Assembly: GCA_001603595.1 (NCBI GenBank)
Contig: LUZK01000015.1
Location: 1-53,120, forward strand
Direction of reading: 5' to 3'
Source: Bacteroidales bacterium Bact_19
Lineage (GTDB): Bacteria; Bacteroidota; Bacteroidia; Bacteroidales; ML635J-15
DNA length: 53,120 nt
Made by a program: the position numbers and the translations under genes. The notes beneath the pieces are model-generated. The model made no database searches. It was not told the origin of the DNA and saw nothing but the letters and a program-made list of their open reading frames with translations. Shown here piece after piece: positions 2,919-30,507 of the stretch (its first letter is position 1; every line of letters begins with the position of its first letter).

Positions 2919-4898
2919 ATGAAAAATTTTGATCCCTACCAGAATTATTTAGCTACATTAAAAAAAATCGGATATATTCCTCGTCAGCTTGCAAAACAGG
3001 AAGATTACGACAGAATCGGATTTATGTCGGGTTTGGAAGTCCATCAACAATTATTAACAGAGAAAAAACTATTTTGTCATTGTCCGGCTGGAATTTATCA
3101 AAAAGATGAGGAATATGATGCAGAGGTAATTCGCCACATGCGTCCGACTTTGAGTGAGCTGGGGGAATATGACGGAACAGCATTAATGGAATTTAAAACC
3201 AGAAAAAATATTGTTTACAGAATTAATAATAAAACAGCCTGTACTTATGAGGTTGACGATACCCCACCTTTTTTAATCAACAAAGATGCTCTTGAAAAAG
3301 CCTTGATAATCACTATTTTATGTAAATTCAATGTTGTAGGCGAGGTACATATAACTCGTAAACAATATCTTGACGGCAGTATTCCTACAGGATTTCAACG
3401 CACTGCTATTCTTGGAGTTGAAGGTGAAATTGAATTGAAAAACAAAAAAGTAAGATTAATTCAATTAAGTATCGAAGAAGATTCTTGTCGTGAAATTAGC
3501 GATGTTGGACATTGGCGTGTGTATAAAACCGATAGACTTGGAATGCCGCTTATAGAAACTGTTACATATCCCGACATGAAGAATCCAGACGAAGTTAAGG
3601 AAGCCTGCGATTACATCAGATTCCTGAATCGCTCAACCGGATTGGTCAGAACAGGAATGGGAGCTGCTCGTCAGGATGTTAATGTAAGTTGCAAGGGGGG
3701 AACAAGAGTCGAAATTAAAGGAGTTGCACACACAAAATGGATTCCGGAACTTACTCACAACGAATGTTTCAGACAATGGTCATTACTCGCTATTCGTGAT
3801 GAATTAAGACAGCGAGTCTCCGACTGGCAAAATTGGAAAATTGAATATACTTATCTTGATTACGATGCTTTTGTAATTACTCATCCTGCAATTAAATCTG
3901 CTAAGGAAAGCGGGAAGAAATTACTTGCAGTGAGATTACCTCATTTTAAAGGAATACTGTCTTGGTATAATCAGCCGGGAATAATGTTTGCTCAGGAAAT
4001 TGCTGATCGTTTGAAGGTTATAGCTTGCCTTGATTTTCCAAATATGGTACATTCAGAGCTGCCTGTTCAGGTAATCACAGATTCAGACATGGAAATCATA
4101 AAAATGATTATGAATTGTGATGAAGAAAAAGATGCTCTTATTGTTTTTTGGGCTACCGAAGATGATGTGGCAACCGCTCTGGAAACTATCGAAGAAAGAT
4201 GCAAAATGGCTTTTGAGGGCGTCCCAAACGAAACCAGAAAATCTTTTGAAGACGGTACTACAATGTTCGAAAGAGTATTGCCCGGTCCCGACAGAATGTA
4301 TCCCGATACAGATTCTACACCAATACCTCTTTCGGTTGAATATATCGAAAATCTTAAAAAACGTATCCCCAATACCGTACGCGAAAGAGTAAATCAAATG
4401 TTGGCATGGGGTATTCCAGAATCTTCGCATACATATATTCTTAGCCGAAATTTATATCCATATATCGAAAAAACAATCAACGAGTATGGTATTGATCCCA
4501 CCGTTGCAGGAAAATTTTTTGGACAGGAACTTAAAAAGGTTGAAGGCAAATACCAGAAAGGACAAGATTTTACCTACGACAGATTGCTTGATTTAATAGC
4601 GTTTTTAAAGCAAAATAATTTACATTGTCCATTAGGAATTTATATGTTACCTGAGTTGTATCAACATCCTAACCTTGACTTTGAATCAATTTTAACCATA
4701 CTAAAATTTAAACGTCGTAGCAAGGAAGAATTGATTTCCAAAATTGATTTTTTGATTGAAAAATACAATTCCGAAGCTAAAAACAAAACAAAAGAAAATT
4801 CCTTAAATTGGGTCATGGGGCAAATCAGACCAATGGCTGTTGGCAACATGGATTTGAATGAATTAAAAGAGGAAATAGAAAAAAGAATAACTCAATAA
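2919..4898 (+). CDS. gatE: Archaeal-type Glu-tRNA(Gln) amidotransferase subunit GatE
   Basis: GatE binds Glu-tRNA(Gln), activates the glutamate by phosphorylation and uses ammonia delivered by GatD to make Gln-tRNA(Gln). The 659-residue protein has the GatB/GatE catalytic cradle at about 30-300 (GLEVHQQL near 38; RQDVNVS near 251 followed by RVEIKG). A GAD-type insertion of the kind found in bacterial AspRS and archaeal GatE occupies about 305-440, and a helical YqeY-like tail about 480-659. Bacterial GatB is about 480 residues and lacks the insertion, so length and domain order both indicate GatE. It is followed 10 bases later by gatD, the obligate partner, and has a Bacteroidota-like promoter. 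GatDE is regarded as an archaeal pathway, so its presence here is unusual and suggests transfer. A GatB with an odd insertion is the only alternative, and the gatD neighbour argues against it. Confidence 0.9.
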   Translation: MKNFDPYQNYLATLKKIGYIPRQLAKQEDYDRIGFMSGLEVHQQLLTEKKLFCHCPAGIYQKDEEYDAEVIRHMRPTLSELGEYDGTALMEFKTRKNIVYRINNKTACTYEVDDTPPFLINKDALEKALIITILCKFNVVGEVHITRKQYLDGSIPTGFQRTAILGVEGEIELKNKKVRLIQLSIEEDSCREISDVGHWRVYKTDRLGMPLIETVTYPDMKNPDEVKEACDYIRFLNRSTGLVRTGMGAARQDVNVSCKGGTRVEIKGVAHTKWIPELTHNECFRQWSLLAIRDELRQRVSDWQNWKIEYTYLDYDAFVITHPAIKSAKESGKKLLAVRLPHFKGILSWYNQPGIMFAQEIADRLKVIACLDFPNMVHSELPVQVITDSDMEIIKMIMNCDEEKDALIVFWATEDDVATALETIEERCKMAFEGVPNETRKSFEDGTTMFERVLPGPDRMYPDTDSTPIPLSVEYIENLKKRIPNTVRERVNQMLAWGIPESSHTYILSRNLYPYIEKTINEYGIDPTVAGKFFGQELKKVEGKYQKGQDFTYDRLLDLIAFLKQNNLHCPLGIYMLPELYQHPNLDFESILTILKFKRRSKEELISKIDFLIEKYNSEAKNKTKENSLNWVMGQIRPMAVGNMDLNELKEEIEKRITQ

Positions 4899-4908
4899 AA
4901 GTTAAAAA

Positions 4909-6297
4909 ATGGATAATACAGATTTTTTTCAGGGTTATAAAGGGAGAGCATTAGAATTACTAAAAAAATATAATGTAAGAGTTTGGGGGCAAGCCGAAAT
5001 TGATACAACACGCGGAAAATTTAAAGGCACTGTTCTTCCACGATCTGTTAATGATGATGATGAACATATTGTAATTAAGGTAATAACCGGGTATAATATT
5101 GGATTAGATATCAATACAATAATTGATATGAAAGAGGTTGGCTATAAGAAAGCCAATTATGCAATTCCGGAAAAAGAATTTCCATATACTCCCGGCTTAC
5201 CAAAAGTTAAATTGTTTGGAACAGGAGGAACTATTGCTTCTCGTCTTGATTATCGTACAGGAGCAGTTATCCCGGCATTTTCTCCCGGAGAATTATATGG
5301 AGCCGTTCCTGAACTTGCTCAAATATGCAATTTAGAAACAGAAAAATTATTTGCTGTTTTTTCCGAAAATATGGGGCCTCAACAATATATTGCTCTAGCA
5401 AAAGCAATTGGCAGGGAAATAGAAAAAGGTGTTGACGGAATAGTTATTGGTCATGGAACAGATACTCTTCATCATACGAGTGCAGTGTTAACTTTTATGT
5501 GTCAAAACCTTCCTGTACCTGTAGTTTTAGTTGGTTCGCAGCGTTCGTCAGACCGCCCGAGTTCCGATGCCGCTTTGAACTTACAACACGCAATGAAAAC
5601 TGCCGGACATTCTGATATAGCTGAAGTCTTAGTTTGTATGTTTGGCCCTACTTCTGACGAGTATGGGCTGTTACATAAAGGAACAAGAGTGAGGAAAATG
5701 CACTCATCCTATAGATCTACCTTTAGAACTATTGGAGATACTCCTGTAGCAATGGTTACTACAAAAGAAATAACCCCTATAAAGAAAAATTATAACAAAC
5801 GTCGTAATGATAAAAATGTTATTATCAAGCCATATTTTAGCGATAAAGTTACCATGGTTTATTATTATCCCGGAATGAAACCCGATACAATTCACGGGTT
5901 AATTGATGCCGGATATAAAGGAATTGTATTTGTTGGTACAGGGCTCGGACATGTTAATAAAGAAATATATCCTGCAATACGTCGTGCTCATGCAGAAGGA
6001 GTACACATGTATATGACTTTGCAAACTATTTGGGGATACGTTCAAATGTATGTTTATGATACAGGTCGTGATATGATGGCTATGGGAATAATTCCAGCCG
6101 GAAATATGCTTCCCGAAGTGGCTTATGTAAAACTTGGCTGGGCTTTGGGACAAACCGAAGATCCTGAAGAGGTAAAGAGAATTATGCTTACTCCGGTTAA
6201 TGATGAAATTACAGAACGCGAACCTTATAACGGTTATTTAGTTTATCAAGGAGGTGTTCCCGAAGTAGAAGAATTTATCAAAAGAGTAAGAAAGTAG
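4909..6297 (+). CDS. gatD: Glu-tRNA(Gln) amidotransferase subunit GatD (asparaginase-like)
   Basis: GatD releases ammonia from an amide donor for GatE. The 462-residue protein has a small N-terminal beta domain at about 15-90 that plain L-asparaginases lack, then a type I/II asparaginase fold. The catalytic residues can be placed by motif: Thr105 in GTGGTIAS, Thr184-Asp185 in GHGTDT, and Lys263 in TRVRKMHSS, the same Thr/Thr-Asp/Lys set used by Methanothermobacter GatD (from memory). The N-terminal domain, the length and the position directly after gatE identify it as GatD and not a metabolic asparaginase. The start ATG at 4909 is 10 bases after gatE. Confidence 0.9.
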   Translation: MDNTDFFQGYKGRALELLKKYNVRVWGQAEIDTTRGKFKGTVLPRSVNDDDEHIVIKVITGYNIGLDINTIIDMKEVGYKKANYAIPEKEFPYTPGLPKVKLFGTGGTIASRLDYRTGAVIPAFSPGELYGAVPELAQICNLETEKLFAVFSENMGPQQYIALAKAIGREIEKGVDGIVIGHGTDTLHHTSAVLTFMCQNLPVPVVLVGSQRSSDRPSSDAALNLQHAMKTAGHSDIAEVLVCMFGPTSDEYGLLHKGTRVRKMHSSYRSTFRTIGDTPVAMVTTKEITPIKKNYNKRRNDKNVIIKPYFSDKVTMVYYYPGMKPDTIHGLIDAGYKGIVFVGTGLGHVNKEIYPAIRRAHAEGVHMYMTLQTIWGYVQMYVYDTGRDMMAMGIIPAGNMLPEVAYVKLGWALGQTEDPEEVKRIMLTPVNDEITEREPYNGYLVYQGGVPEVEEFIKRVRK

Positions 6298-6953: not shown

Positions 6954-7111
6954 AATTCTCTCATTAAAAAAGATAAATTTTGTTATAATTTATTTAATTT
7001 ATTACAAATTGCAACCATAATGTAAATTTTAAGGTCTTGAAGTTGATTAGTTTTTTTAAATTGCAAAAATTTTAAAGTTAAAAATTAATATTTATAATCA
7101 ATACAAATTTT

Positions 7112-10100
7112 ATGAAAAAGTTTACCATTTTGATTTTATTAGTAAGTTTTGGAAGTTTTGTTTTTTCTCAAATCTCAAATCAAAAACCAATTTTGAAAAT
7201 AACCTCCGAAACAGAAGAAGAAATAATAATGGAATTTAATTTAAATTCTTATTATTTTGAACAAGTTGAAACATCAAGAGGTCTTGCAAATGTTACTAAA
7301 ATCCCCGGATGCTCAAACAATTATACCAAAGGAACGCCGGATTTAGCATATTACACTAAAGCAATAAATATTCCGGCAAAAGGAAATGTACATTGCGAGG
7401 TTTTAAATTATAATTATATTGTTATTCCCGACATCTTAATTGCTCCTTCAAGAGGAAGCATAATGAGGAATATTGATCCTCAAACAGTTCCTTATGAATA
7501 TGGAAAAGAATACTCTATAAATGCATTTATGCCTGATAAACAAGCATTTTTGAGCGAGCCTTATATCATACACAAACTTAGAGGCACTAACCTCACAATA
7601 GTCCCATTTTCTTATAATCCAGTTACAAGAGAACTAAGAATTTACACAGATATACTTTTAAAGCTTACATTTGACTCAAATTCTTCATCTAAAAATGAAT
7701 TGACAGTTTCAAATAATAAAGTTGCTGACGAATTTTTAAATTTATATAAAAGACATTTTGTAAATTTCCATAACAACAGTAAATATACTCCTCTCGAAGA
7801 TGGCACTCCCGGAAAAATGTTAATAATTTGTGCAGATAATTACGCAAGTGCTATGTATCCATACATTTCGTGGAAAAGAGAAAAAGGTATTGAAGTTGAA
7901 ATGGTACTAAAAAGTCAGGTTGGAACTACTTCAACACAGATAAAAAGTTTTATTCAAAACTACTATAATAATAATGAACTCACTTATGTTCTTTTAGTAG
8001 GTGACGGTCCTGATATTCCGCCAATGACAATTAGTAATAACGACTCCGATAATGGTTACGCATATCTCAACGGTAGTGATGGTTATGCAGATGTTTTCAT
8101 CGGAAGGTTTTCAGGAAATTCTGTGGCTGATATTCAAATTCAGGTACAAAAAATGATTTATTACGAACGCGATATGGGAGTTGATGCTGCCTGGTTGGAA
8201 AATGCTTTTGGATCGGCTTCAAGTGAAGGCGGAGGTTCTACAGGTCATAATGGAGGAGAATCTGATGTAGTTCATCTAAATCTTATTAAAACAAAATTGG
8301 AAAATTACGGATATACTGTTACTCATGTAAATCAAGATGGTGGTAATAACGCCATGATTACTACAGCCTTTAATTCCGGAATGGGTGTAGCAAACTATAT
8401 TGGACATGGAGATGTAACCTTATGGGTAAATACGAATTTTACAAATACTAATGTAAATGCTTTAACTAATAATTATAAACTACCTTTTATTTTTAGTGTT
8501 GCTTGTGTGAATGGAGATTTTAAAAATAACACTTGTTTTGCTGAAACTTGGTTAAGAGCTTCAAATAATGGACAACCTACTGGAGCTGTAGGCTTTTTGG
8601 GTTCAACAATAAATCAGTCATGGAATGAACCAATGACAGGTCAGGATGAAATGAACGACATTTTAGTGGAATCTTATCAAAATAACATTAAAAGAACTTA
8701 CGGTGGAATTTGTTTCAATGGTTTATTTAAAATGATTGAGGAGGGAGGCCAAGGTCAAGCAATGGCAGATACATGGACATTGTTCGGTGATCCTTCACTA
8801 ATGGTTAGAACCAAAACCCCTCAAGTAATGAATATTACTCATTCAGGCACAGTTTCTGTTGGTGCTACTGAGTTTATTGTCAATTGCGATGTAGAAGGAG
8901 CGTTAGTGTCGCTTACAAAATACGAAAATAATGAGACTATTATAATAGGGTATGCTTATGTTTCTGGTGGAATTGCTAATGTTACAATTGCTCCTTTTGA
9001 TGCTCCGGGAACTATGAAAGTTACTGTTACTGCCTTTAATAAAATTACTTATCAGGAAGATGTTACTGTAATTGTTCCTGAAGGTCCTTATATTGTTAAC
9101 GGTGGATTTTCTATTAATGATGAGGACAGTAACAATAATGGTGTAGTTGATTATAATGAAACGTTTTTTATAAATCAGGCTTTGAATAATGTAGGTATTG
9201 CTGACGCAAGTTTTGTTACTGCAACAATAAGTTCAACTTCATCTGATGTTCAAATTTTGCAAGAAAGTGCTAATTTTGGATTTATTTCTGCAGGGTGTAC
9301 AAGTACTCTTGGTAATGCTTACATGGTTTCTGTTAATGATGGAGTAGCCGATCAAACTTTAATACCATTCTCATTGCTTGTCGAAGATATGGAAAATCAT
9401 ACCTGGATAATGAATTATAATATTGCTGTTAATGCTCCTGCTATGGAAATATCATTCTATGGCATTGATGATTCACAAGGAAATAACAACGGCATGCTTA
9501 ATGCCGGAGAACAAGTTATCCTTAAAATTAAGGTCGCCAACAATGGACATTCTGCATCTCAAGCAGGTAATCTTCATATATATTCTTCAAACGCTAATGT
9601 AACTTTATTAGATTCTGAAAAACCTGTAATCGGAATTAATTATGGAGAATTTGAAATAATTGAATTTGAATTAGTAGTTAATGAAGAAACTCCGGTTGGA
9701 GAGAATATTTGTTTTGATTATGTACTCAATACTGGTATGTATAATGCTCAATCTTCAACTTGTTTACCTTGTGGTCTGCAGATAGAAGATTTTGAAACTG
9801 GTGATTTTACAAAATATGAATGGGTAAATAATACAAACAGACCATGGATTATTGTAAGTGATGTTGTTTATGAAGGACAAAATGCAGCAAAATCAGGTCA
9901 GGTTCCTTCATCGGGAGGAGAATCTGTTTTGACAATAAATTTAAACGTTTTAAATAATGATGAGATTCAATTCTATAAAAAAGTAAGCTGTGAAGCTGCT
10001 TCTTCATGGTGGGGACAATTGACTTATTGGGATTATCTTTCTTTCTCAATTGATAATGTTGAAAAAGGAAAATGGGCAGGTGAAGTTAACTGGAGTCAAG

Positions 10101-10519
10101 AAACTTATCCGGTAACTGCAGGAAATCATTCATTCAAATGGACTTATAAAAAAGATAATTACGTTGACGAAGGTAGCGACTGTGCATGGTTGGATTATAT
10201 TAAACTTCCAAATCATCAACAGGCTGTTAGCATTGTTAATTCAAATGTTGTTGTTAGTCAAAATATTGTAAATGTTTATCCAAATCCTGCAACTAACTAC
10301 TTTAATCTATATGTAAATCTTACTGAAAATATCGAAGCTAAAATTTATGTATATACAGTTGACGGAAAAACTGTTTATGAATATTCTCAATCTTTTGAAA
10401 TCTTAAAAGGCGAAAATATTATTCCTATAAATTCATCAAAATTTGATAACGGCATATACATAGTTAAATTGGTTTTGGAAAATGAAGTATATACCAAGAC
10501 GGTTATTATAAACTGGTAG
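7112..10519 (+). CDS. Arg-gingipain-like C25 cysteine peptidase with T9SS type A sorting domain
   Basis: Secreted endopeptidase, 1,135 residues. Order: signal peptide (about 1-20), gingipain-type propeptide (about 25-225), C25 catalytic domain (about 233-575), Ig-like domain, further beta domains, and a type A sorting domain from about 1052 (NVYPNPA start). The catalytic dyad is His432 in YIGHGD and Cys465 in VACVNGD, 33 residues apart as in RgpB (His211/Cys244). The RgpB S1 residues Asp163, Trp284 and Met288 have counterparts in Asp385 (GESD), Trp504 (NQSW) and Met508, so arginine specificity is predicted; this alignment is from memory of RgpB. The PPAD-like gene follows after 57 bases. Haemagglutinin/adhesin repeats of RgpA/Kgp are absent. 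Final sorting to the surface is inferred from the C-terminal domain. Confidence 0.9.
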   Translation: MKKFTILILLVSFGSFVFSQISNQKPILKITSETEEEIIMEFNLNSYYFEQVETSRGLANVTKIPGCSNNYTKGTPDLAYYTKAINIPAKGNVHCEVLNYNYIVIPDILIAPSRGSIMRNIDPQTVPYEYGKEYSINAFMPDKQAFLSEPYIIHKLRGTNLTIVPFSYNPVTRELRIYTDILLKLTFDSNSSSKNELTVSNNKVADEFLNLYKRHFVNFHNNSKYTPLEDGTPGKMLIICADNYASAMYPYISWKREKGIEVEMVLKSQVGTTSTQIKSFIQNYYNNNELTYVLLVGDGPDIPPMTISNNDSDNGYAYLNGSDGYADVFIGRFSGNSVADIQIQVQKMIYYERDMGVDAAWLENAFGSASSEGGGSTGHNGGESDVVHLNLIKTKLENYGYTVTHVNQDGGNNAMITTAFNSGMGVANYIGHGDVTLWVNTNFTNTNVNALTNNYKLPFIFSVACVNGDFKNNTCFAETWLRASNNGQPTGAVGFLGSTINQSWNEPMTGQDEMNDILVESYQNNIKRTYGGICFNGLFKMIEEGGQGQAMADTWTLFGDPSLMVRTKTPQVMNITHSGTVSVGATEFIVNCDVEGALVSLTKYENNETIIIGYAYVSGGIANVTIAPFDAPGTMKVTVTAFNKITYQEDVTVIVPEGPYIVNGGFSINDEDSNNNGVVDYNETFFINQALNNVGIADASFVTATISSTSSDVQILQESANFGFISAGCTSTLGNAYMVSVNDGVADQTLIPFSLLVEDMENHTWIMNYNIAVNAPAMEISFYGIDDSQGNNNGMLNAGEQVILKIKVANNGHSASQAGNLHIYSSNANVTLLDSEKPVIGINYGEFEIIEFELVVNEETPVGENICFDYVLNTGMYNAQSSTCLPCGLQIEDFETGDFTKYEWVNNTNRPWIIVSDVVYEGQNAAKSGQVPSSGGESVLTINLNVLNNDEIQFYKKVSCEAASSWWGQLTYWDYLSFSIDNVEKGKWAGEVNWSQETYPVTAGNHSFKWTYKKDNYVDEGSDCAWLDYIKLPNHQQAVSIVNSNVVVSQNIVNVYPNPATNYFNLYVNLTENIEAKIYVYTVDGKTVYEYSQSFEILKGENIIPINSSKFDNGIYIVKLVLENEVYTKTVIINW

Positions 10520-10576
10520 TTTAGAAAGGTCTCCCTTCGAGGAAACATTTTTCTAATAATTAAAAAAATATTTATT

Positions 10577-12274
10577 ATGAAAAGGAAAATTTTTTTAGTT
10601 TGCATATTAGGTTTTCTTTCAAGTGTGATTTATTCTCAGCAGATTACCGATCCAAAAATTCAAGCAAAATATCATGCATTAAATTATGAAGAGCTGAGTC
10701 AAAAAGGCTTGAATTCGAAGAGTTTTGTAGAAACAACTCCACCTGCGGGACCAGTTCGAAATATAGCAGAATTTGAGCCTAATCAAGGGGTTATAATTTC
10801 TTATGCAAATAACTTTGGCATACCTGCGACATTGATTCGGGCACTTGCAGAATATGTTCATGTTTATGTTGTGTGTGCAAATAATAGTACAGCTCAGAAT
10901 ATAAATACTTATTTTATTAATAACAATGTCAATACTGCTAATGTATCTTATGTTATTGCTCCAATAGATTCTTATTGGTCAAGAGATTATAGCCCTTGGT
11001 TTATTGAATACACAGATAATCATGTCCCCGGAATTGTAAATTTTCCTTATAATCGTCCTCGTCCTAATGATAATGATATTCCTATTGTTTTTGGAAATTA
11101 TTTAGGTTTGGAAGTATTTGGAATGAATGTAGTTCATACAGGAGGTAATTACATGTGCGACGGATACGGAGTTGCTGCTTCAACTGATTTAGTGTATGAA
11201 GAAAATACAAATTTAACTTCCAATCAAATAATGCAAAAACATTTGGACTACTTAGGCATTTCAAACTATCACTTAGTGCCTGATCCATTGGGAGATTACA
11301 TTAAACATATTGATTGTTGGGGAAAATTTCTAGACGTTGATAAAATATTGATAACAAGTGTTCCTGCTACGAATCCTCAATATGCAGAATATGAAGCAAT
11401 GGCTGATTATTGGGCAAATCAAACCAGCTCTTACGGAACAAAATATAAAGTTTATCGGACTTACAGTCCAAACGGACAGCCATATTCCAATTCTTTAATT
11501 ATGAACAATAAAGTATTTATTCCTTTTGTTAACGGTTCTGGTAGTTCTTATAACAGTCAAGCTGCAGATGTTTATGCTCAGGCTTTACCCGGCTATCAAA
11601 TTATAGGAATAAATTATGATTATTGGTACAGCACAGATGCTTTGCATTGTCGCACTCACGAAGTCCCTGACCTACAAATGTTAAGAGTAAAACATATTCC
11701 TTATCATGATACAATTGAATATCAGGATTTGTTTATGTTTTCGGCGGAAGTTTATTCTTTTTCCAATTCGAATGCAATTAATAGTGTTAAACTATATTAT
11801 AAAGTAAACGATCAAACTACATTCTCTGAATTAGCTATGCAAAATATTGGCAACAATAATTATTTTTGCAGTCTTAGTTTTAACTTTGGCGATGAGGTAT
11901 ATTATTATATAGAGGCAACAGATTCTCGCCCTCATACAGAATATCATCCTTATTTAGGATCTGTAAATCCGCATCATTTTGTAATTAGTGATCCATATTC
12001 CATAGCATATCAAGATGAAATGTCCTATGTAAAAGCCTATCCTAATCCTGCAACAGAGCAACTTTTTGTCGTTGCAAACAATATAAATCAGAATATTCAA
12101 AGAATAGAGATAGTGGATTTAACCGGTAAGATTGTTAAAACAGTTGATATTTCTAAGACTTCGTTTGATTGGGACCTTTTAACGATTGATATTTCAGAAC
12201 TTCCTTCACAGCTTTATGTATTAAAATTAGTATCTGATCAAAAAATCTTTCTGACAAGATTTGTAAAATACTAA
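10577..12274 (+). CDS. Porphyromonas-type peptidylarginine deiminase (PPAD-like) with T9SS sorting domain
   Basis: Converts arginine, probably C-terminal peptidyl arginine, to citrulline and ammonia outside the cell. The 565-residue protein has a signal peptide (about 1-20), an agmatine-deiminase/PAD fold (about 55-375), an IgSF-like domain, and a type A sorting domain from about 485 (YPNPATEQ). Residues reported as catalytic in P. gingivalis PPAD all have counterparts at an offset of 7-8: Asp137, His244, Asp246, Asn305 and Cys358. The PPAD arginines 152 and 154, which hold the substrate's free carboxylate, correspond to Arg160 and Arg162 in YNRPRPND. That argues for peptide, not free agmatine, as substrate. 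It is the second gene of a likely pair with the Rgp-like protease. PPAD itself is 556 residues, so the length fits. Confidence 0.9.
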   Translation: MKRKIFLVCILGFLSSVIYSQQITDPKIQAKYHALNYEELSQKGLNSKSFVETTPPAGPVRNIAEFEPNQGVIISYANNFGIPATLIRALAEYVHVYVVCANNSTAQNINTYFINNNVNTANVSYVIAPIDSYWSRDYSPWFIEYTDNHVPGIVNFPYNRPRPNDNDIPIVFGNYLGLEVFGMNVVHTGGNYMCDGYGVAASTDLVYEENTNLTSNQIMQKHLDYLGISNYHLVPDPLGDYIKHIDCWGKFLDVDKILITSVPATNPQYAEYEAMADYWANQTSSYGTKYKVYRTYSPNGQPYSNSLIMNNKVFIPFVNGSGSSYNSQAADVYAQALPGYQIIGINYDYWYSTDALHCRTHEVPDLQMLRVKHIPYHDTIEYQDLFMFSAEVYSFSNSNAINSVKLYYKVNDQTTFSELAMQNIGNNNYFCSLSFNFGDEVYYYIEATDSRPHTEYHPYLGSVNPHHFVISDPYSIAYQDEMSYVKAYPNPATEQLFVVANNINQNIQRIEIVDLTGKIVKTVDISKTSFDWDLLTIDISELPSQLYVLKLVSDQKIFLTRFVKY

Positions 12275-12604
12275 TAGTGGGATAAACTCTTTGCAGGTTT
12301 TGATTTGTAAAAATGTCGTTTCTGTACAGTTTTGAGCAGGATTATTATTTTTTTACCATAGAATTATAATAAACCAAATATTTCACAGCAGAAAATCCAA
12401 AATTTTGGATAAAAATATCTTGTTTTTGCTGTATATCAACCTATTACAACTAATAAAAATTCCAAACGCTATACATTGGAAATTAAAGTCTATAGAGGAA
12501 TTTGGTATAAATATATAACCTATTCTAAAGTATAGATGTTCCATATACATTTATTCTTCAAAGCGATATTAAAACGATACATGCAGCATTTGAAGTTTAA
12601 CTGA
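12275..12604. other. Non-coding gap downstream of the PPAD-like gene
   Basis: About 330 bases with no convincing open frame on either strand. It contains a nested inverted repeat (listed separately) and otherwise AT-rich sequence. It ends where the decayed type B sorting domain becomes readable. Confidence 0.5.
12385..12432. repeat. Nested inverted repeats downstream of the PPAD-like gene
   Basis: A perfect 16-base palindrome (ATCCAAAATTTTGGAT, 12395-12410) is flanked by outer arms ACAGCA at 12385-12390 and TGCTGT at 12427-12432. It lies 110 bases after the stop codon. It may be a 3' hairpin of the protease/deiminase transcript or a protein-binding site; there is no clean U-tract directly after the inner stem, so it is not called a terminator. 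Confidence 0.4.
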
Positions 12605-12883: not shown

Positions 12884-12908
12884 CATCTAATTTTGTGCAT
12901 TGTTATTT

Positions 12909-13325
12909 ATGTCACATAATGATAAGATTGAACATATAGGCGTAATTAGCGAAATTAAAGATGGCATTATTAAAGTAGATATCAATGTTCAATCTGCTTG
13001 TGCAAGTTGTCATGCTTCAGGAGTTTGTGGAGTAGATTCATCAAATAGAATCATAGAAGTATTTGCAAATCAGTCCCAGTATAATATTGGAGATCAGGTA
13101 AAGGTAGTGATAAAACAAAGGCTTGGTTATGTTGCATTATTATTGGGATATGTAGTTCCTTTTTTTGTAATAGTATTGACATTAGTAATATTTTTAAAAC
13201 TTGGAATTAGTGAGGGAATCTCAGGTTTGTTTTCTGTTCTTATTTTGATTCCTTATTACATAACCGTTTATTTATTTAGAGATAAGATAAAGAAAGAGTT
13301 TAACTTTGAAATTGAAAAAATTTAA
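12909..13325 (+). CDS. rseC: RseC/SoxR-reducing-system family membrane protein
   Basis: 138-residue inner-membrane protein of the RseC/RsxC-associated family, commonly the first gene of rnf operons in Bacteroidales. Its N-terminal domain carries a cysteine cluster (CASC, then GVCG, near residues 31-42). Two transmembrane segments follow at about 76-96 and 101-121. I prefer the ATG at 12909 to the TTG at 12900, which sits closer to the promoter box and would add only three residues. The stop is 5 bases before rnfB, so it is part of the operon. Its likely role is a redox or regulatory accessory to Rnf; the exact function in this phylum is unknown. Confidence 0.85.
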   Translation: MSHNDKIEHIGVISEIKDGIIKVDINVQSACASCHASGVCGVDSSNRIIEVFANQSQYNIGDQVKVVIKQRLGYVALLLGYVVPFFVIVLTLVIFLKLGISEGISGLFSVLILIPYYITVYLFRDKIKKEFNFEIEKI

Positions 13326-13330
13326 GTTTA

Positions 13331-14197
13331 ATGTTTATGGATATTATTCTGAACACTTTGATTACTTTGAGTTTGTTGGGAGCAGTTATGGCTGTTATCC
13401 TATACGTAGTGGCACAAAAATTTAAAGTTTATGAGGATCCACGTATAGATGTTGTAGAAACTTTGACTCCAGGAGCTAACTGTGGAGGTTGTGGACATCC
13501 TGGATGTAGAGGTTTTGCCGAAGCATGTGTTAAAGCTGAAAGTCTTGACGGTTTGTTCTGTCCAGTTGGTGGAAATGAAACAATGAAAAAAATTGCAGAA
13601 GCTCTCGGACGTGCAGTCGTTGAAGCTGAACCAAAGGTTGCTGTTGTGCGTTGTAATGGTACTTATGAAAAGCGAAATAAAACAACTTATTATGACGGAC
13701 CAAGCTCTTGTGCCATAGAACATTCTTTATATATGGGAGATACTGATTGTGCATACGGATGTTTAGGTTTAGGAGATTGCGTTGCTAAATGTACCTTTGA
13801 TGCAATGTATATGGACGAAGAATCCGGGTTACCTATGATTGATGAAAATAAATGTACGGCATGCGGAGCTTGTGTAAAAGCCTGTCCGAGAAACATTATC
13901 GAATTAAGAAACAAAGGTAAGAAAAATCGCAGAATTTATGTTTCTTGTGTCAATCATGATAAAGGGGCAGATGCTCGTCGAGCATGCGGAGCAGCATGTA
14001 TTGCATGTAATAAATGTGTTAAAGTATGTCCTTACGAAGCAATTGTAGTCGAAAATTTCTGTGCATATATTGACTTTGAGAAGTGTAAATTATGCAGAAA
14101 ATGTGTTGCAGAATGTCCAACCGGAGCAATACTCGAAGTAAACTTTCCACCTCGTAAGGAAAAGGTCGAAAGTGCTGAAGAAACAGCTGTTAATTAA
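13331..14197 (+). CDS. rnfB: Electron transport complex subunit RnfB
   Basis: Iron-sulphur subunit that takes electrons from reduced ferredoxin into the Rnf complex. The 288-residue protein starts with one membrane helix (about 5-28), followed by the 4Fe-4S domain with a GANCGGCGHPGC motif near residue 50. Several ferredoxin-type clusters follow, built from CTACGACVKACP, CIACNKCVKVCP and CKLCRKCVAECP, with an additional CxxGLGDC region before them. This multi-cluster layout is normal for RnfB. A second ATG two codons downstream could be the actual start. Second gene of rseC-rnfBCDGEA. Confidence 0.95.
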   Translation: MFMDIILNTLITLSLLGAVMAVILYVVAQKFKVYEDPRIDVVETLTPGANCGGCGHPGCRGFAEACVKAESLDGLFCPVGGNETMKKIAEALGRAVVEAEPKVAVVRCNGTYEKRNKTTYYDGPSSCAIEHSLYMGDTDCAYGCLGLGDCVAKCTFDAMYMDEESGLPMIDENKCTACGACVKACPRNIIELRNKGKKNRRIYVSCVNHDKGADARRACGAACIACNKCVKVCPYEAIVVENFCAYIDFEKCKLCRKCVAECPTGAILEVNFPPRKEKVESAEETAVN

Positions 14198-14233
14198 TGT
14201 AAAAGTTTTAACTTTAATATAGGAGATTAAGCA

Positions 14234-15565
14234 GTGTTAAAGACATTTCCAAAAGGTGGTGTTCATCCACACGAAAACAAATTTTCGGCAGGAAAACCTA
14301 TAGAGAAAATTGAATTGCCAAAGCAGGTATCAATTCCGGTATCACAACACCTTGGAGCTCCTGCACAACCTGTTGTTAATAAAGGAGATGAAGTAAAAGT
14401 TGGTCAGCTTATCGCAAAAAGCACAGGGTTTATTTCTGCAAATATTCATTCATCAGTGTCGGGTAAGGTTTCTAAAATTGAGAAAATTATTGATTCTACA
14501 GGATATAAGCAAACTGCCATCATTATTGATGTTGAAGGTGATGAATGGCTTCCAGAAATTGACCGCAGTACTGCACTGGTAGAAGATATTGACAAATTTA
14601 CAGCTGAAGAAATCAGAGCAAAAGTAGCTGAAGCTGGTATTGTAGGTTTGGGTGGTGCAACATTTCCAACAAATGTTAAAATTTCCATACCGCAGGGAAA
14701 AGTTTGCGAAAACTTGATAATAAACGCGGTTGAATGTGAACCATATCTTACCTCGGACCATCAGCTTATGCTCGAAAAATCTGACGAAATTATTGTTGGA
14801 GCTCGATTACTTCAAAAAGCTGCCGGAGCAAAAAAGATTTACATCGGTATCGAAAACAATAAACCTGATGCAATAGAGCTGTTGAAGAAAAAAGCAGCTA
14901 AATATCAGGATATTGAAGTTGTTGCATTGAAGGTTAAATATCCTCAAGGAGGTGAAAAGCAACTGATAAAAGCTGTTGTTAACAGAGAAGTTCCCTCAGG
15001 AGGTTTACCAATAGATGTTGGGTGTGTAGTTCAGAATGTTGGTACTGCTTATGCTGTTTATGAAGCTGTGCAAAAAAATAAACCTTTAATAGAAAGAGTT
15101 GTAACAGTAACTGGTAAATCTGTTCCAAAACCTTCTAATTTGCTTGTAAGAATAGGTACTCCGGTAAGTAATTTAATCGAAAAAGCAGGGGGATTACCTG
15201 AAGATACGGGAAAAATTGTGAATGGTGGCCCTATGATGGGAAAAGCTGTTAAAGATTTTTCAATTCCTGTAACTAAAGGGACTTCAGGTATTTTACTTAT
15301 TACATCTGATGAAGCAAAACGTCCTAAGACATATAATTGTATTCGTTGTGCAAGATGCGTATTTGTGTGTCCGATGGGGCTAGAGCCTTATCTTATAAAG
15401 AATATGGCTACTGTTGGAATGTTTAAAGAATTGCAAGATGAAAGAGTTCTAGACTGTATGGAATGCGGATCCTGCTCTTTCGGTTGTCCTGCAGGAGTTC
15501 CTCTTTTAGATTATATTCGTTTGGGTAAAGCAAATTTAAACAAAATATTAAGATCAAAAAAATAA
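14234..15565 (+). CDS. rnfC: Electron transport complex subunit RnfC
   Basis: Peripheral NADH/NAD-binding subunit with FMN and two 4Fe-4S clusters. The 443-residue protein begins LKTFPKGGVHPHENK, the usual RnfC N-terminus, which fixes the start at the GTG at 14234. An AGGAG at 14221-14225 precedes it, one of the few Shine-Dalgarno-like sites in the window. A Gly-rich NAD/FMN site (VGLGGATFPTNVK) lies near residues 138-150, and cluster motifs CIRCARCVFVCP and CMECGSCSFGCP lie near 370-420. It lacks the long Ala/Lys-rich C-terminal extension of the proteobacterial protein, as expected outside that group. Confidence 0.95.
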   Translation: MLKTFPKGGVHPHENKFSAGKPIEKIELPKQVSIPVSQHLGAPAQPVVNKGDEVKVGQLIAKSTGFISANIHSSVSGKVSKIEKIIDSTGYKQTAIIIDVEGDEWLPEIDRSTALVEDIDKFTAEEIRAKVAEAGIVGLGGATFPTNVKISIPQGKVCENLIINAVECEPYLTSDHQLMLEKSDEIIVGARLLQKAAGAKKIYIGIENNKPDAIELLKKKAAKYQDIEVVALKVKYPQGGEKQLIKAVVNREVPSGGLPIDVGCVVQNVGTAYAVYEAVQKNKPLIERVVTVTGKSVPKPSNLLVRIGTPVSNLIEKAGGLPEDTGKIVNGGPMMGKAVKDFSIPVTKGTSGILLITSDEAKRPKTYNCIRCARCVFVCPMGLEPYLIKNMATVGMFKELQDERVLDCMECGSCSFGCPAGVPLLDYIRLGKANLNKILRSKK

Positions 15566-15571
15566 TAAATA

Positions 15572-16576
15572 ATGGGACAGAATAGATTAATAGTTTCGTT
15601 ATCTCCACATGATCATGCAAAGGACTCTGTGAGTAAAATCATGTATGGAGTGGTAATAGCAATGATACCGGCTCTGCTTGTATCAGTTTATTTTTTTGGG
15701 TTGGATGCTATTAGGGTTAATTTAATTGCAATTGCAGCATGTATTTTTTTCGAGTGGATAATTCAAAAATTATTATTAAAAGGAGAATTAACAATCACAG
15801 ACGGCTCTGCAATTGTTACAGGGATGTTATTGGCGTTTAATGTTCCATCTAATTTGCCATGGTGGATAATTGTTATTGGAGCATTAGTATCAATAGGTAT
15901 TGGCAAAATGTCTTTTGGAGGTTTAGGTAATAATCCGTTTAATCCCGCATTGGTTGGTCGCGTATTTTTGTTAATATCATTTCCGGTACAAATGACTTCT
16001 TGGCCGAAAGTTCAGGTTCTAAACTTTGCAATGACCGATGCTCAAACCGGTGCAACGCCTCTTGCAATTGTAAAAGAAGGCTTAAAAAACGGGGAGTCTT
16101 TTTCAAGTATTATTAATAATTTGCCTACAAGCTACTCAGATATGTTTTTTGGTCAGATGGGAGGATCTTTAGGAGAAATTTCTGCAATAGCTTTGATTAT
16201 AGGTGGATTGTATATGCTTTATCGTAAAATTATCACCTGGCATATCCCTGTCTCTATAATTGCAACAGTTGCTATTTTTACCGGTATTCTTTACGGCATC
16301 AATCCTGATAAATATGCAGATCCTTTATTTCATCTATTAACGGGAGGTTTAATGCTGGGAGCTATTTTCATGGCAACAGATATGGTAACCAGCCCTATGA
16401 CAGCAAAAGGTATGATTATTTATGGAGTAGGAATAGGTATAATAACCGTTTTGATAAGAGTATGGGGAGCTTATCCAGAAGGCGTTTCTTTTGCAATTTT
16501 AATAATGAATGCGTTTACCCCTTTAATTAATTATTATGTAAAACCAAAACGTTTTGGTGAAATTGTAAAAAAGTAG
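15572..16576 (+). CDS. rnfD: Electron transport complex subunit RnfD
   Basis: Integral membrane subunit with about nine to ten helices that carries a covalently bound FMN and forms part of the ion path. The 334-residue sequence contains DAQTGATPL; Thr162 in TGAT is the likely flavin attachment residue. The conserved GGLGNNPFNPALVGR segment lies near 116-130 and a second conserved DMVTSPMTAKG segment near 270. It starts 6 bases after rnfC and is followed 3 bases later by rnfG. Confidence 0.94.
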   Translation: MGQNRLIVSLSPHDHAKDSVSKIMYGVVIAMIPALLVSVYFFGLDAIRVNLIAIAACIFFEWIIQKLLLKGELTITDGSAIVTGMLLAFNVPSNLPWWIIVIGALVSIGIGKMSFGGLGNNPFNPALVGRVFLLISFPVQMTSWPKVQVLNFAMTDAQTGATPLAIVKEGLKNGESFSSIINNLPTSYSDMFFGQMGGSLGEISAIALIIGGLYMLYRKIITWHIPVSIIATVAIFTGILYGINPDKYADPLFHLLTGGLMLGAIFMATDMVTSPMTAKGMIIYGVGIGIITVLIRVWGAYPEGVSFAILIMNAFTPLINYYVKPKRFGEIVKK

Positions 16577-16579
16577 GTT

Positions 16580-17224
16580 ATGGCAAAGAAAGAATCAACA
16601 TTTTTAAACATGACGCTTACACTATTTGTAATTACGGCAATTTCTGCTTTAGCTTTAGCGTCGGTATATAATTTAACAAAAGGCCCTATCGAAAATGTAA
16701 AAAAGCAAAATTTACAAAATGCAATTGGAGTGGTAGTCCCTGATGCTCGAAAAGGAAATTTTGACGATTTTGAACAAATCGTTGTTAAATCTTCAGATGG
16801 TATTGGAGATATTACTATGTACAAAGTCGTTGTTGATAACGAATTTAAAGGTATGGCAGTGAAAACTTTTTCCATGAAAGGATTTGGAGGGATAATTTCA
16901 GTTATGGTTGGTTTTACTCCAGATGGAACGATTATTGATTCTGATGTTTTGGAACATAAAGAAACTCCGGGTTTAGGTGATAAGACTTCTAAAAATGTAA
17001 GTTCTTGGAATGAACAATTTAAAGGTAAAAACCCCGATCAATTTAAATTAACTGTAAAAAAAGATGGTGGTGATGTAGATGCAATTACAGCTGCAACTAT
17101 TAGTTCACGGGCATACTGCGATGCTCTTAAGAGAGCTTATGATACTTATATAAATTATTTATCTGCAAATGGTCAGAATTCCATTGAAAATAATGTTGAA
17201 CCTAAAGATGGAGGAAACAAGTAA
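16580..17224 (+). CDS. rnfG: Electron transport complex subunit RnfG
   Basis: Membrane-anchored periplasmic FMN-binding subunit. The 214-residue protein has one N-terminal membrane helix (about 9-31) and an FMN-binding domain. The flavinylation motif reads [12 protein letters not shown], with Thr173 as the likely attachment residue; the usual form is S/T-G-A-T, so the second position is Ala instead of Gly here. Flavinylation would need an ApbE enzyme, which is not in the window. The stop codon TAA overlaps the rnfE start (TAATG). Confidence 0.93.
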
Positions 17225-17802
17225 TGAATAATTGGAAAAACTTTACTAAAGGATTTATAAAAGAAAATCCGGTATTTGTTCTAGTTTTGGGGATGTGTCC
17301 AACTTTAGGAGTAACAACATCTGCAATTAATGGATTGGGAATGGGATTAGCAACAACTTTTGTGCTTTTTGGTTCTAATGTGGTGATTTCATTAGTTAAA
17401 AACTTCATTCCCGATAAAGTACGTATTCCATCATTTATAGTTATTATCGCTTCATTTGTTACAATTATTGATTTATCAATGTCAGCTTATGTTCCCGACT
17501 TATATAAATCTTTAGGATTATTTATCCCTCTAATTGTTGTAAACTGTATCGTTTTAGGAAGAGCCGAAGCTTTTGCATCGAAGAACACAATTATTTCTTC
17601 TGCAATTGATGGTTTAGGCATGGGGTTGGGATTTTCTTTCGCTCTAACATTACTTGGTGCATTGAGAGAATTATTAGGAGCTTATTCATTATTCGGGCAT
17701 AAATTTATAAATACTGACGGGATATTGGTTTTTGTACTAGCTCCCGGTGCTTTTTTAGGCTTAGCTTACCTAATTGCCATTATGAAAAGAATCAATAAAT
17801 AA
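17224..17802 (+). CDS. rnfE: Electron transport complex subunit RnfE
   Basis: Integral membrane subunit of 192 residues with about six helices, homologous to NqrD. It contains the family's inverted-repeat hallmarks, including [19 protein letters not shown] near the N-terminus and [12 protein letters not shown] near 111-122. The start ATG overlaps the rnfG stop, indicating translational coupling. RnfE and RnfA together form the membrane core that binds a 2Fe-2S centre and carries the ion flux. Confidence 0.94.
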
Positions 17803-17818
17803 TTAAAATATAAGTATT

Positions 17819-18391
17819 ATGGAATATATAATAATTATTATAAGTGCAATATTTGTCAATAACATAGTATTAGCTCAATTCCTTGGAATCTGCCCTTTCC
17901 TAGGAGTTTCGAGTAAAATTAAAACATCCTTAGGTATGGGAGGAGCTGTTTTGTTTGTTATGACTCTTGCCACAATTGTTACGTGGCTTATTATGAATTA
18001 CATTCTAATGAAATTCAATATAGTATTTATGCAAACAATTGCTTATATATTAGTAATTGCTGCATTAGTACAAATGGTAGAAATTATACTAAAAAAGATT
18101 AGCCCTTCTTTATATCAGGCACTTGGAGTTTTTCTCCCATTAATTACCACCAATTGTGCAATACTTGGAGTTGCAATTATGGTAATACAAAAGAATTATG
18201 ATTTATTGCAAAGTGTTGTATTTTCTATAGGAACAGCTCTCGGATTTACATTAGCTTTGATTATTTTGGCTGGAATTAGAGAACAACTCGAAAAATTACC
18301 TATCCCAAGCGGTATGAAAGGAGTTCCTGTAGCTTTAGTCGTTGCCGGTATTTTGGCTCTCGCTTTCATGGGTTTTGCTGGTCTTGTTTAA
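17819..18391 (+). CDS. rnfA: Electron transport complex subunit RnfA
   Basis: Integral membrane subunit of 190 residues, about six helices, homologous to NqrE. Recognised by [19 protein letters not shown] near 13-31 and [12 protein letters not shown] near 111-122, the two half-repeats with the paired cysteines. Last gene of the operon; a strong terminator follows. The gene order B-C-D-G-E-A is the one seen in Bacteroides-type and proteobacterial-like clusters, as opposed to C-D-G-E-A-B of clostridia. Confidence 0.94.
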
Positions 18392-29466: not shown

Positions 29467-30507
29467 ATGAATAAAGATTTTCAAAACATTAGTTCCGAGT
29501 TGTTGGAAATTTACTCCAAAAAGTTGAAAGTAAAATCTTGTCCGCATTGTAAAAGTAAAAGGTTTATAAAGCACAGTAGATATAAATACACTCAGCGATT
29601 TAAATGCCTTGATTGCGGGCGTACTTTTCTTCCGAGTACAGGAACAAGTTTGCATTATCTACACAAGAAGGAAGTTTTCATAGAGTATTCAAAGATAATA
29701 CGTGAACAAGGGCTATTGTCCTTGAAAAAGATGCGAGAGCTTTGTAATATAAGTCATTTAACGGCATTTGACTGGAGGCACAAGATATTACTGTCAATAC
29801 CGGAGAGCAACAGAAAGCTTAAGGGAGATATATTTTGCGACGATATTTGGTTTGTTTATAGTCAAAAGGGGCGAAAATTAATTCCGGGAGCAAGGCGAAG
29901 ACCATTGCCGGAGCCTTTTAAGCATAGAGAATTTACCGTTAGAATGATTTCAATGAATAATCATTCAAGAAATTTAATGAAAATTGTCAAGGTTGGGGAT
30001 TTATATTTCAAAGATTTTTTTGAAGCCTTTGCAAACAGTATAGATAGAAATGCTTGTATTTACAATATTTCAAAAAATGATCAGTTAAAGAAATTTGCTA
30101 AAGAAAAAGCTGTAAAACATATTATTCCTTCTATAGAAGAAGCAAAAAATAATTATAAACTTTTTCAGACAAGAAGCGAAATAAAAAACTTTATCAATAA
30201 AATTTTAAAGGGAGTCTCTACTAAGTATTTACAGCTTTATGCTGGATATTATTCCTATGCAAAAAATCAAGTCTTTGATGCCATTTCAGAAAAATTTTTA
30301 AATCACCGACATGTTTGGTTTACTTATACTAGATTAGAAGATATTTATTATATATTTACAAAATTAGCAACTAAGGTGTTGTTTGCTCATGAAAATAAAC
30401 GCTTCTGGAAAAGCACGAGAAATATGGTAATACCTGAAAGATCTATGATTTTAAAAATAGATGAGGACTTATATAAATACATTTCTGGAATTAGCAGAAT
30501 TTATTAG
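29467..30507 (+). CDS. IS1595-like transposase homologue, probably catalytically degenerate
   Basis: 346 residues. N-terminal zinc ribbon (CPHC at about 21-24, CLDC at about 48-51), a helix-turn-helix-like stretch (LSLKKMRELCNISHLTAFDWRHK), and an IS1595-type DDE core recognised by GVSTKYLQLYAGYY near 260-273. The DE of the first motif is DD (FCDDIW), and the position where I would align the second catalytic Asp reads IYNIS with no Asp. A candidate Glu remains in TRSEIKNF. The 3' end overlaps the convergent glycosyltransferase by 17 bases, leaving no room for a terminal inverted repeat, and none was seen at the 5' side. A fixed, possibly domesticated DNA-binding protein is more likely than an active IS. 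Confidence 0.65.
   Translation: MNKDFQNISSELLEIYSKKLKVKSCPHCKSKRFIKHSRYKYTQRFKCLDCGRTFLPSTGTSLHYLHKKEVFIEYSKIIREQGLLSLKKMRELCNISHLTAFDWRHKILLSIPESNRKLKGDIFCDDIWFVYSQKGRKLIPGARRRPLPEPFKHREFTVRMISMNNHSRNLMKIVKVGDLYFKDFFEAFANSIDRNACIYNISKNDQLKKFAKEKAVKHIIPSIEEAKNNYKLFQTRSEIKNFINKILKGVSTKYLQLYAGYYSYAKNQVFDAISEKFLNHRHVWFTYTRLEDIYYIFTKLATKVLFAHENKRFWKSTRNMVIPERSMILKIDEDLYKYISGISRIY

Follow-up and report, generated by a model that had tools for sequence, protein, structure and literature searches.

We report that a Bacteroidales contig analysed here over 53,120 nucleotides (LUZK01000015.1, this stretch hereafter being the window) carries a gene for an Arg-gingipain (Rgp)-like protease of family C25 next to a gene for a deiminase resembling PPAD, the peptidylarginine deiminase of Porphyromonas gingivalis, and that this arrangement is maintained across the window's family between flanks that differ. 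Cleavage after arginine followed by citrullination is a two-step process best known from the gum-disease bacterium. We propose, with a probability of roughly three in four, that the pair forms a secreted two-step module for Rgp cleavage and citrullination of the resulting C-terminal Arg in Bacteroidales not named Porphyromonas. Both enzyme families were already known; what is new is the conserved pair and its association throughout the order.

In the proposed mechanism, the protease, of gingipain type and specific for Arg, would be produced as a zymogen and cut proteins after arginine, and since such cleavage leaves peptides ending in arginine, R160, R162 and Y241 of the deiminase would hold the new C-terminal carboxylate while C358, H244 and N305 would turn the arginine into citrulline, releasing ammonia. 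We infer both activities, their coupling and a shared transcript. The benefit may be a supply of peptides and ammonia, or relief of the protease from product inhibition by Arg-ended peptides.

Table 1. Features of the protease-deiminase locus, in window coordinates.
Feature	Position	Strand	Evidence
Rgp-like (gingipain R type) C25 protease, 1135 aa	7112..10519	+	ORF, Pfam/NCBIfam, RgpB match, fold
Protease layout: signal peptide, prodomain, caspase-like catalytic domain, Ig-like domain, ~400 aa, T9SS type A sorting domain		+	
C25 prodomain, aa 28-207, including R119	7193..7732	+	PF08126 7.4e-33; RgpB prodomain 4ief_A
C25 catalytic domain, aa 236-565	7817..8806	+	PF01364 2.7e-61; residue map
Ig-like domain after C25 catalytic domain, aa 570-652	8819..9067	+	PF03785 4.4e-17
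Protease T9SS type A sorting domain, aa 1055-1133	10274..10510	+	PF18962 / TIGR04183
Intergenic gap, 57 bases	10520..10576	+	
PPAD-like peptidylarginine deiminase, 565 aa	10577..12274	+	ORF, Pfam, PPAD match, residue map, fold
Deiminase layout: signal peptide, pentein catalytic domain, Ig-like domain, T9SS type A sorting domain		+	
PAD_porph catalytic region, aa 84-364	10826..11668	+	PF04371 1.5e-27; D137, R160, R162, Y241, H244, D246, N305, C358
Deiminase T9SS type A sorting domain, aa 488-558	12038..12250	+	PF18962 5.2e-11

A preliminary description of this DNA had reported an Rgp-like protease beside a PPAD-like deiminase, and that observation is confirmed: both open reading frames were located where it had placed them, separated by the short gap it gave, and Pfam found a Por_Secre_tail domain in each protein, as expected from its claim that both end in a T9SS type A sorting domain. 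The signal peptides of the two proteins were called by eye only. The scans listed no terminator-like or sigma-70-like site within the gap between the genes; the promoter scans, uninformative as a whole, found 33 sigma-70-like sites (36 expected) and 86 occurrences of the TANNTTTG pattern (88 expected). A recent foreign insertion was rejected on the G+C content, which is 0.32 in both genes and 0.33 in the remaining window. A mobile or plasmid-borne pair was likewise rejected, as no plasmid DNA matched positions 7000-12400 and no phage matched the deiminase.

The preliminary description had proposed looking for synteny in relatives, and a C25 protease was found directly upstream of PPAD in 25 of the 26 loci of the window's family, in 24 by its catalytic domain and in one (L061) by its C-terminal part at a contig end. 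The catalytic domain is partial or split at L050, L053, L067 and L073, and the family proteases of G012 and G026 are split in the assemblies, through either error or decay. The gap between the genes has a median of 28 (range 1-372) in 24 family pairs. Flanking genes vary between subclades, with rnf genes lying downstream in the window and in 5 of 19 other loci compared, and other flanks or no shared flank elsewhere. Across 19 loci, PPAD identity tracks C25 identity (r = 0.98, 171 pairs), and the pair is retained down to 46% PPAD identity. Five of the 31 family genomes lacked a PPAD at 1e-20. Two of them (G010, G030) are cut by contig ends, G005 has only a protease, which groups with a second copy of G016, and G004 and G025 hold only weaker C25 matches (E 2.1e-40; 39% identity) that lie outside the tree sampling.

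The association extends beyond the family. The order sample comprised 393 genomes, with scoring limited to the best three or four candidates in each. Of these genomes, 108 had a strong PPAD match, and an Rgp-like match was present in 100 of the 108 versus 58 of the 285 others; eight strong-PPAD genomes had no such match. Since 58 genomes have an Rgp-like protease without a strong PPAD, the protease is not dependent on the deiminase. The T9SS marker was found in 369 of the 393 genomes, and among marker-positive genomes the association was unchanged (100/108 versus 56/261); co-occurrence as a by-product of the T9SS was rejected on this ground. With one genome per family, the protease was found in 36 of 36 strong-PPAD genomes versus 19 of 84 others, and a within-family shuffle attained the observed co-occurrence in 1 of 5000 trials; related genomes are not independent, and these family-level tests do no more than soften the effect of kinship. 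Outside the window's family, linkage was uncommon: 16 of 122 distinct PPAD loci had some C25 gene within 3 kb and the remaining 106 had none, 3 kb of sequence being available on both sides in only 80 of the 122. Pairs with the order reversed, PPAD coming first, occur at L155, L163/G748 and L198/G531.

These counts bear on the possibility that the two are independent secreted digestive enzymes, their adjacency being passive synteny and the deiminase using peptides made by any protease. The unlinked majority of loci outside the family would fit such an arrangement, as would the PPADs of G027 and the named locus L120, which have no protease neighbour, and the resemblance of both proteins to T9SS cargo in an order where the T9SS is so widespread. 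However, passive synteny would not readily account for a pair that persists at low PPAD identity while its flanks vary, for co-occurrence at the level of one genome per family, for pairs in reversed order, or for G004, G005 and G025, from which the two seem to be missing together. We consider independence unlikely.

The protease contains the Pfam domains Propeptide_C25, Peptidase_C25 (208 bits), Peptidase_C25_C and Por_Secre_tail. Among solved structures its best match was RgpB (4ief/1cvr) at E 1.9e-107, with 138 of 301 aligned residues identical (46%) in the initial portion of mature RgpB. The dyad H432/C465, which the preliminary description had likened to that of RgpB, aligns to RgpB H211/C244, and the S1 counterparts it had named (D385, W504 and M508) align, together with Q502, to D163, W284, M288 and Q282. 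These four S1 residues are kept in all 23 alignable PPAD-adjacent family proteases, the truncated L067 being left out. The predicted fold gave a TM of 0.91-0.92 to RgpB versus 0.77 to Kgp, the model being poor just around the W504 loop. In the protease tree RgpB lies within a 72-row Rgp-like clade (support 99) with Kgp outside, the Kgp row being partial and on a long branch; all trees were quick ML searches with SH-aLRT as the only support. Kgp (4TKX/4RBM) shares the C25 fold and dyad with the window protease but is a far weaker match (E 1.4e-20) with a gap at the D163 column, and a Lys-gingipain type was rejected on the S1 residues and the score. The window protease is also like RgpB (1CVR, 4IEF) in its prodomain, prodomain Arg, Ig-like domain and T9SS tail, and unlike it in having approximately 400 residues between the Ig-like and sorting domains and in the residue preceding the mature N-terminus, which is Lys224 where RgpB has Arg229. 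Lys224 is basic, but an RgpB-type autoprocessing site after a prodomain Arg is lacking; this is a processing detail and not what the specificity claim rests on. Judged from its sequence, the window protease would cleave after Arg and be made as a zymogen.

The prodomain suggests another role for the deiminase, compatible with the two-step module, namely that it chiefly activates the neighbouring protease. If the zymogen were cut after R119, the Arg end of the prodomain would sit in S1, and its citrullination would free the active site. R119, a residue the preliminary description had not named, aligns to Arg126 of the RgpB prodomain, its placement in S1 being predicted from sequence, and this Arg is kept in all 21 family neighbours with a letter at that column. 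Arg126 is described as occupying S1 in the RgpB zymogen (PMC4357240), and in a study of P. gingivalis strains the proteins that nearly all of them citrullinated included an Arg-gingipain (PMC6147916). However, proteases without a strong PPAD are common across the order, as counted above, and activation as the chief role seems improbable.

The deiminase (Pfam PAD_porph, 97 bits, and Por_Secre_tail) matched PPAD 4yt9 best, at E 8.5e-115 against 5e-09 for 1xkn, with 193 of 413 residues (47%) identical to PPAD. As the preliminary description had stated, the protein retains each of the five catalytic residues of PPAD, C351/H236/N297 and the guanidinium-binding D130 and D238 corresponding to C358/H244/N305, D137 and D246, and R160 and R162 align to R152 and R154. 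To these we add Y241, absent from its list, which aligns to Y233; R152, R154 and Y233 of PPAD bind the C-terminal carboxylate of the substrate (PMC4487231). Both Arg were present in all 149 distinct strong PPADs read and the Tyr in 142, being missing in seven. The alignment to 4YT9 runs through residue 470 and includes the Ig-like domain, and the predicted fold is close to PPAD (4YT9/4YTB/5AK7; TM 0.95-0.96, rmsd 1.2-1.6), versus a target-normalised TM of approximately 0.70-0.79 for agmatine deiminases. Unlike PPAD, the window protein has K243 at the position of N235, and it adjoins its presumed protease partner. It probably acts on C-terminal rather than internal peptidyl-Arg, to judge by these residues.

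The agmatine deiminase AguA shares the pentein fold and the Cys/His/Asp/Asn centre. Eleven plasmid records matched the deiminase protein at 22-25% identity (seven annotated as agmatine deiminase, four unannotated there), and in the six agmatine-deiminase-type plasmid proteins (four so annotated, two unannotated) equivalents of R152, R154 and Y233 are absent, neither Arg being found in any of the six. That the window protein is a secreted enzyme of broad PF04371 type acting on agmatine or free arginine, unrelated to peptides, is very improbable: the Pfam family is common to both and NCBIfam agmatine deiminase models match weakly at 31.7-37.3 bits, but these scores fall far under the cut-offs of 381.8 and 483 bits (31.7 against 381.8 for TIGR03380), the PPAD-type Arg pair and Tyr are present, PPAD is by far the nearest fold, and the tree splits the PPAD side from the agmatine-deiminase type with SH-aLRT 100, on long branches. 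A free-agmatine enzyme was rejected on the same scores, Arg pair, tree and fold together with a search for AguA in the window's genome, which gave no match at 1e-10. The grouping of the deiminase, the S1 alignment to RgpB and synteny in relatives are the three points on which the preliminary description had made its interpretation depend; none of them spoke against it, and the two-step module is supported.

The preliminary description had further remarked that such adjacency would bear on where PPAD came from. In the trees, the P. gingivalis enzyme falls together with G700 and further lineages, as one tip inside the order-wide PPAD diversity. Since this is a different clade from that of the window's family, the window pair is not its direct ancestor, and a direct-source role is unsupported by the trees. 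The separate clade, together with the 106 unlinked loci, means that the pair points instead to a functional partnership and to a broad PPAD family, and the remark has to be amended to that extent. The Rgp and PPAD genes of P. gingivalis are presumably unlinked. We lean towards PPAD being an old secreted partner of Arg-gingipain in Bacteroidota rather than something that arose in a periodontal pathogen, serving two-step C-terminal citrullination, fixed in a single operon throughout the family of the window and relinked elsewhere, sometimes in reverse, with P. gingivalis having inherited or acquired one branch whose genes we take to be apart.

Given the number of PPAD-bearing genomes, the invariant Arg pair and the position of P. 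gingivalis as a single tip, the origin and purpose of C-terminal citrullination become testable in other bacteria. Its original purpose outside P. gingivalis is now approachable, the locus supplies a natural Rgp-PPAD pair for biochemistry, and the findings bear on which bacteria outside the mouth could make citrullinated peptides. Within Bacteroidales this family of deiminases is broad, with P. gingivalis on a separate branch, and PPAD-like genes also occur in metagenome-assembled genomes labelled, as given, Cloacimonadota, Chlorobiota and Aminicenantes.

The protease and deiminase genes lie side by side on the forward strand, 57 bases apart, and both products carry the type A T9SS sorting domain that the preliminary description had ascribed to them. 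The protease ORF (1135 aa) comprises a C25 prodomain, the catalytic domain, an Ig-like domain and the type A tail, and the deiminase ORF (565 aa) a PAD_porph domain followed by the same kind of tail. The nearest solved structure to the protease is RgpB (E 1.9e-107), with Lys-gingipain (Kgp) far weaker (1.4e-20), while that to the deiminase is PPAD (E 8.5e-115), 1xkn being next (5e-09). Fold models, built from each window protein with locus homologues only, gave target-normalised TM scores for the deiminase (pLDDT 89) of 0.95-0.96 against PPAD and about 0.70-0.79 against agmatine deiminases, and for the protease (pLDDT 76, weak at residues 500-507) of 0.91-0.92 against RgpB and 0.77 against Kgp.

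Residue maps were read by script from the printed alignments to RgpB and PPAD. As had been proposed, the protease dyad H432/C465 and the S1 counterparts D385, W504 and M508 fell on the RgpB columns H211/C244, D163, W284 and M288, with Q502 at Q282. The deiminase likewise kept R160, R162 and the catalytic set in the expected places, W134, D137, R160, R162, Y241, H244, D246, N305 and C358 aligning with PPAD W127, D130, R152, R154, Y233, H236, D238, N297 and C351. Prodomain R119 of the protease aligns with RgpB Arg126, the residue occupying S1 in the zymogen; counting against RgpB likeness, Lys224 rather than Arg precedes the mature N-terminus. Within the family, all 23 alignable proteases next to a PPAD gene have equivalents of D163, Q282, W284 and M288, and all 21 with a letter at the prodomain Arg column have Arg there. 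Published work describes the roles of RgpB D163, W284 and M288 (PMC9559808, PMC4357240) and gives PPAD R152, R154 and Y233 as ligands of the substrate carboxylate (PMC4487231). The sequences support T9SS sorting domains, a zymogen whose prodomain has Arg where RgpB fills S1, Arg-type S1 residues and C-terminal-carboxylate ligands in the deiminase. Both proteins would be secreted, the protease probably cleaving at Arg and the deiminase probably citrullinating its cleavage products; the two genes may share one transcript, and the coupled enzymes could benefit the cell. Two other long open frames of the same genome (L010, G000 C153; L012, G000 C120) match residues 661-1044 of the protease only, at 27-31% identity.

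PPAD was found at E <= 1e-20 in 26 of 31 genomes of the window's family, and a C25 catalytic domain lay directly upstream on the same strand in 24 of the 26 loci read, including partial or split C25 genes (L050, L053, L067, L073). At L061 (G008) only the C-terminal part of a C25 gene precedes PPAD, at a contig end, and G027 alone among the 26 has no C25 neighbour, as is also true of L120, a named relative in the same clade. The intergenic gap in the 24 pairs has a median of 28 bases (range 1 to 372), and PPAD divergence parallels C25 divergence (r = 0.98, 19 loci). Of 20 loci whose flanks were compared, the window and L047, L049, L050, L051 and L055 have rnf genes 3' of the pair and the other 14 do not, so that the pair persists in differing surroundings. 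Conservation in related genomes, which the preliminary description had left to be checked, thus extends to 25 of 26 family loci. Among the five family genomes without PPAD at 1e-20, G005 has a single protease, which clusters with G016's second copy, G004 and G025 have weaker C25 matches only (neither in the C25 tree), and in G010 and G030 contigs end and presence is not judgeable; these absences are provisional because the genomes are draft assemblies. The Rgp-PPAD pair is real and family-conserved, a new arrangement of known kinds of enzyme, of which we found no report in the open-licence PMC full texts searched.

In the C25 tree (81 rows), 23 family neighbours and four other family proteases form one clade (99), with RgpB inside a wider Rgp-like clade and Kgp, a partial row, outside. 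The deiminase does not group with agmatine enzymes, a placement that would have spoken against the proposal: in a quick 75-row ML tree, six agmatine-deiminase-type plasmid proteins (four so annotated, two unannotated) split from all PPAD-like rows with support of 100, on branches flagged as long, and the window's family is a single clade (95). A 147-row tree built without this outgroup places P. gingivalis PPAD within a 25-row clade (96), near Lentimicrobiaceae-type sequences. G700 neighbours P. gingivalis PPAD in both trees, far from the window's family; as to the wider relationships of P. gingivalis PPAD the trees disagree, in part since the smaller lacks many of the near rows. Among the matches listed, at least 572 of 587 stretches encode relatives at 1e-3, and 80 named loci were retained from them; these come from MAGs whose labels, which may be wrong, include Bacteroidales, Bacteroidetes, Cloacimonadota and Chlorobiota. 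A second PPAD-like class (L095-L106) forms a sister group, about 30% identical, in which all 12 loci read keep the R152/R154 equivalents but carry Gly, Gln or Pro in the Y233 column; this class may accept internal arginine.

Outside the family, strong PPAD genes were read at 122 distinct loci; 16 of these have some C25 gene within 3 kb, in 14 cases on the same strand, and of the 80 loci with 3 kb on both sides 8 have one. In some of them the protease is of Rgp type and has every S1 residue; three of these run in reversed order, PPAD first (L155; L163, G748; L198, G531). Elsewhere the nearby C25 protease is of a different type, with no D163 equivalent (L079, L088, L206; also L077 and L123, at about 4 kb) or with Ser/Thr at W284 (L125, L128, L209). 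Tight linkage thus characterises the family and recurs here and there elsewhere; it is not the rule. At L209 (G636) and L128 tandem C25 genes precede PPAD, the nearer with Ser or Thr at the S1 lid Trp284, the farther gapped at Asp163.

Across the order, one draw of 393 genomes (390 with a family label) was searched with P. gingivalis PPAD (cut-off 1e-30; strong below 1e-70), the catalytic part of the window protease (1e-60) and SprA_N for the T9SS; the best three or four candidates were scored per genome, so that misses are possible for both genes. PPAD matched in 141 genomes (108 strong, 33 weak), the protease in 158 and SprA_N in 369. The protease was present in 100 of 108 strong-PPAD genomes versus 58 of 285 others; when a single genome was taken from each of 120 families, in 36/36 versus 19/84; and with families taken whole, in 44/46 versus 20/74. 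Shuffling protease presence within families gave a mean of 95.0 against the 100 observed, which was reached in 1 of 5000 shuffles. The association is strong, and was not found in the open-licence PMC papers searched. It is also one-sided, the protease often occurring without PPAD and PPAD seldom without the protease, the pattern expected of a deiminase needing Arg-ended products. In a phylum-wide draw the window deiminase was matched at 1e-20 in 26 of 395 genomes, rarer than within the order; apart from the window itself, four of these matches have 40-45% identity and the remainder 29-34%. PMC8826395 already states, referring to a supplementary figure, that pPAD genes occur more widely than had been assumed, so breadth of PPAD alone is not wholly new; Porphyromonas is described as holding two PF04371 lineages in PMC10394638.

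Coordinates of the gene pair and other features of the window
Feature	Position	Remark
GatE and GatD, archaeal-type Glu-tRNA(Gln) amidotransferase, adjacent	2919-4898, 4909-6297	both above NCBIfam cut-offs
Rgp-like C25 protease	7112-10519	
PPAD-like deiminase	10577-12274	
rnf electron transport cluster	12900-18391	begins ~0.6 kb 3' of the pair; RnfB confirmed, other genes named by eye
IS1595-like transposase	29467-30507	59 bits, under family cut-off 75
1934-aa ORF, TTG start; BNR_assoc_N, CUB and Ig_7 domains	34853-40657	no NCBIfam name matched
1569-aa SprB-repeat/PKD protein; choice-of-anchor L domain, type B T9SS tail	48273-52982	

GatDE is regarded as archaeal, and the window genome is of Bacteroidales type.
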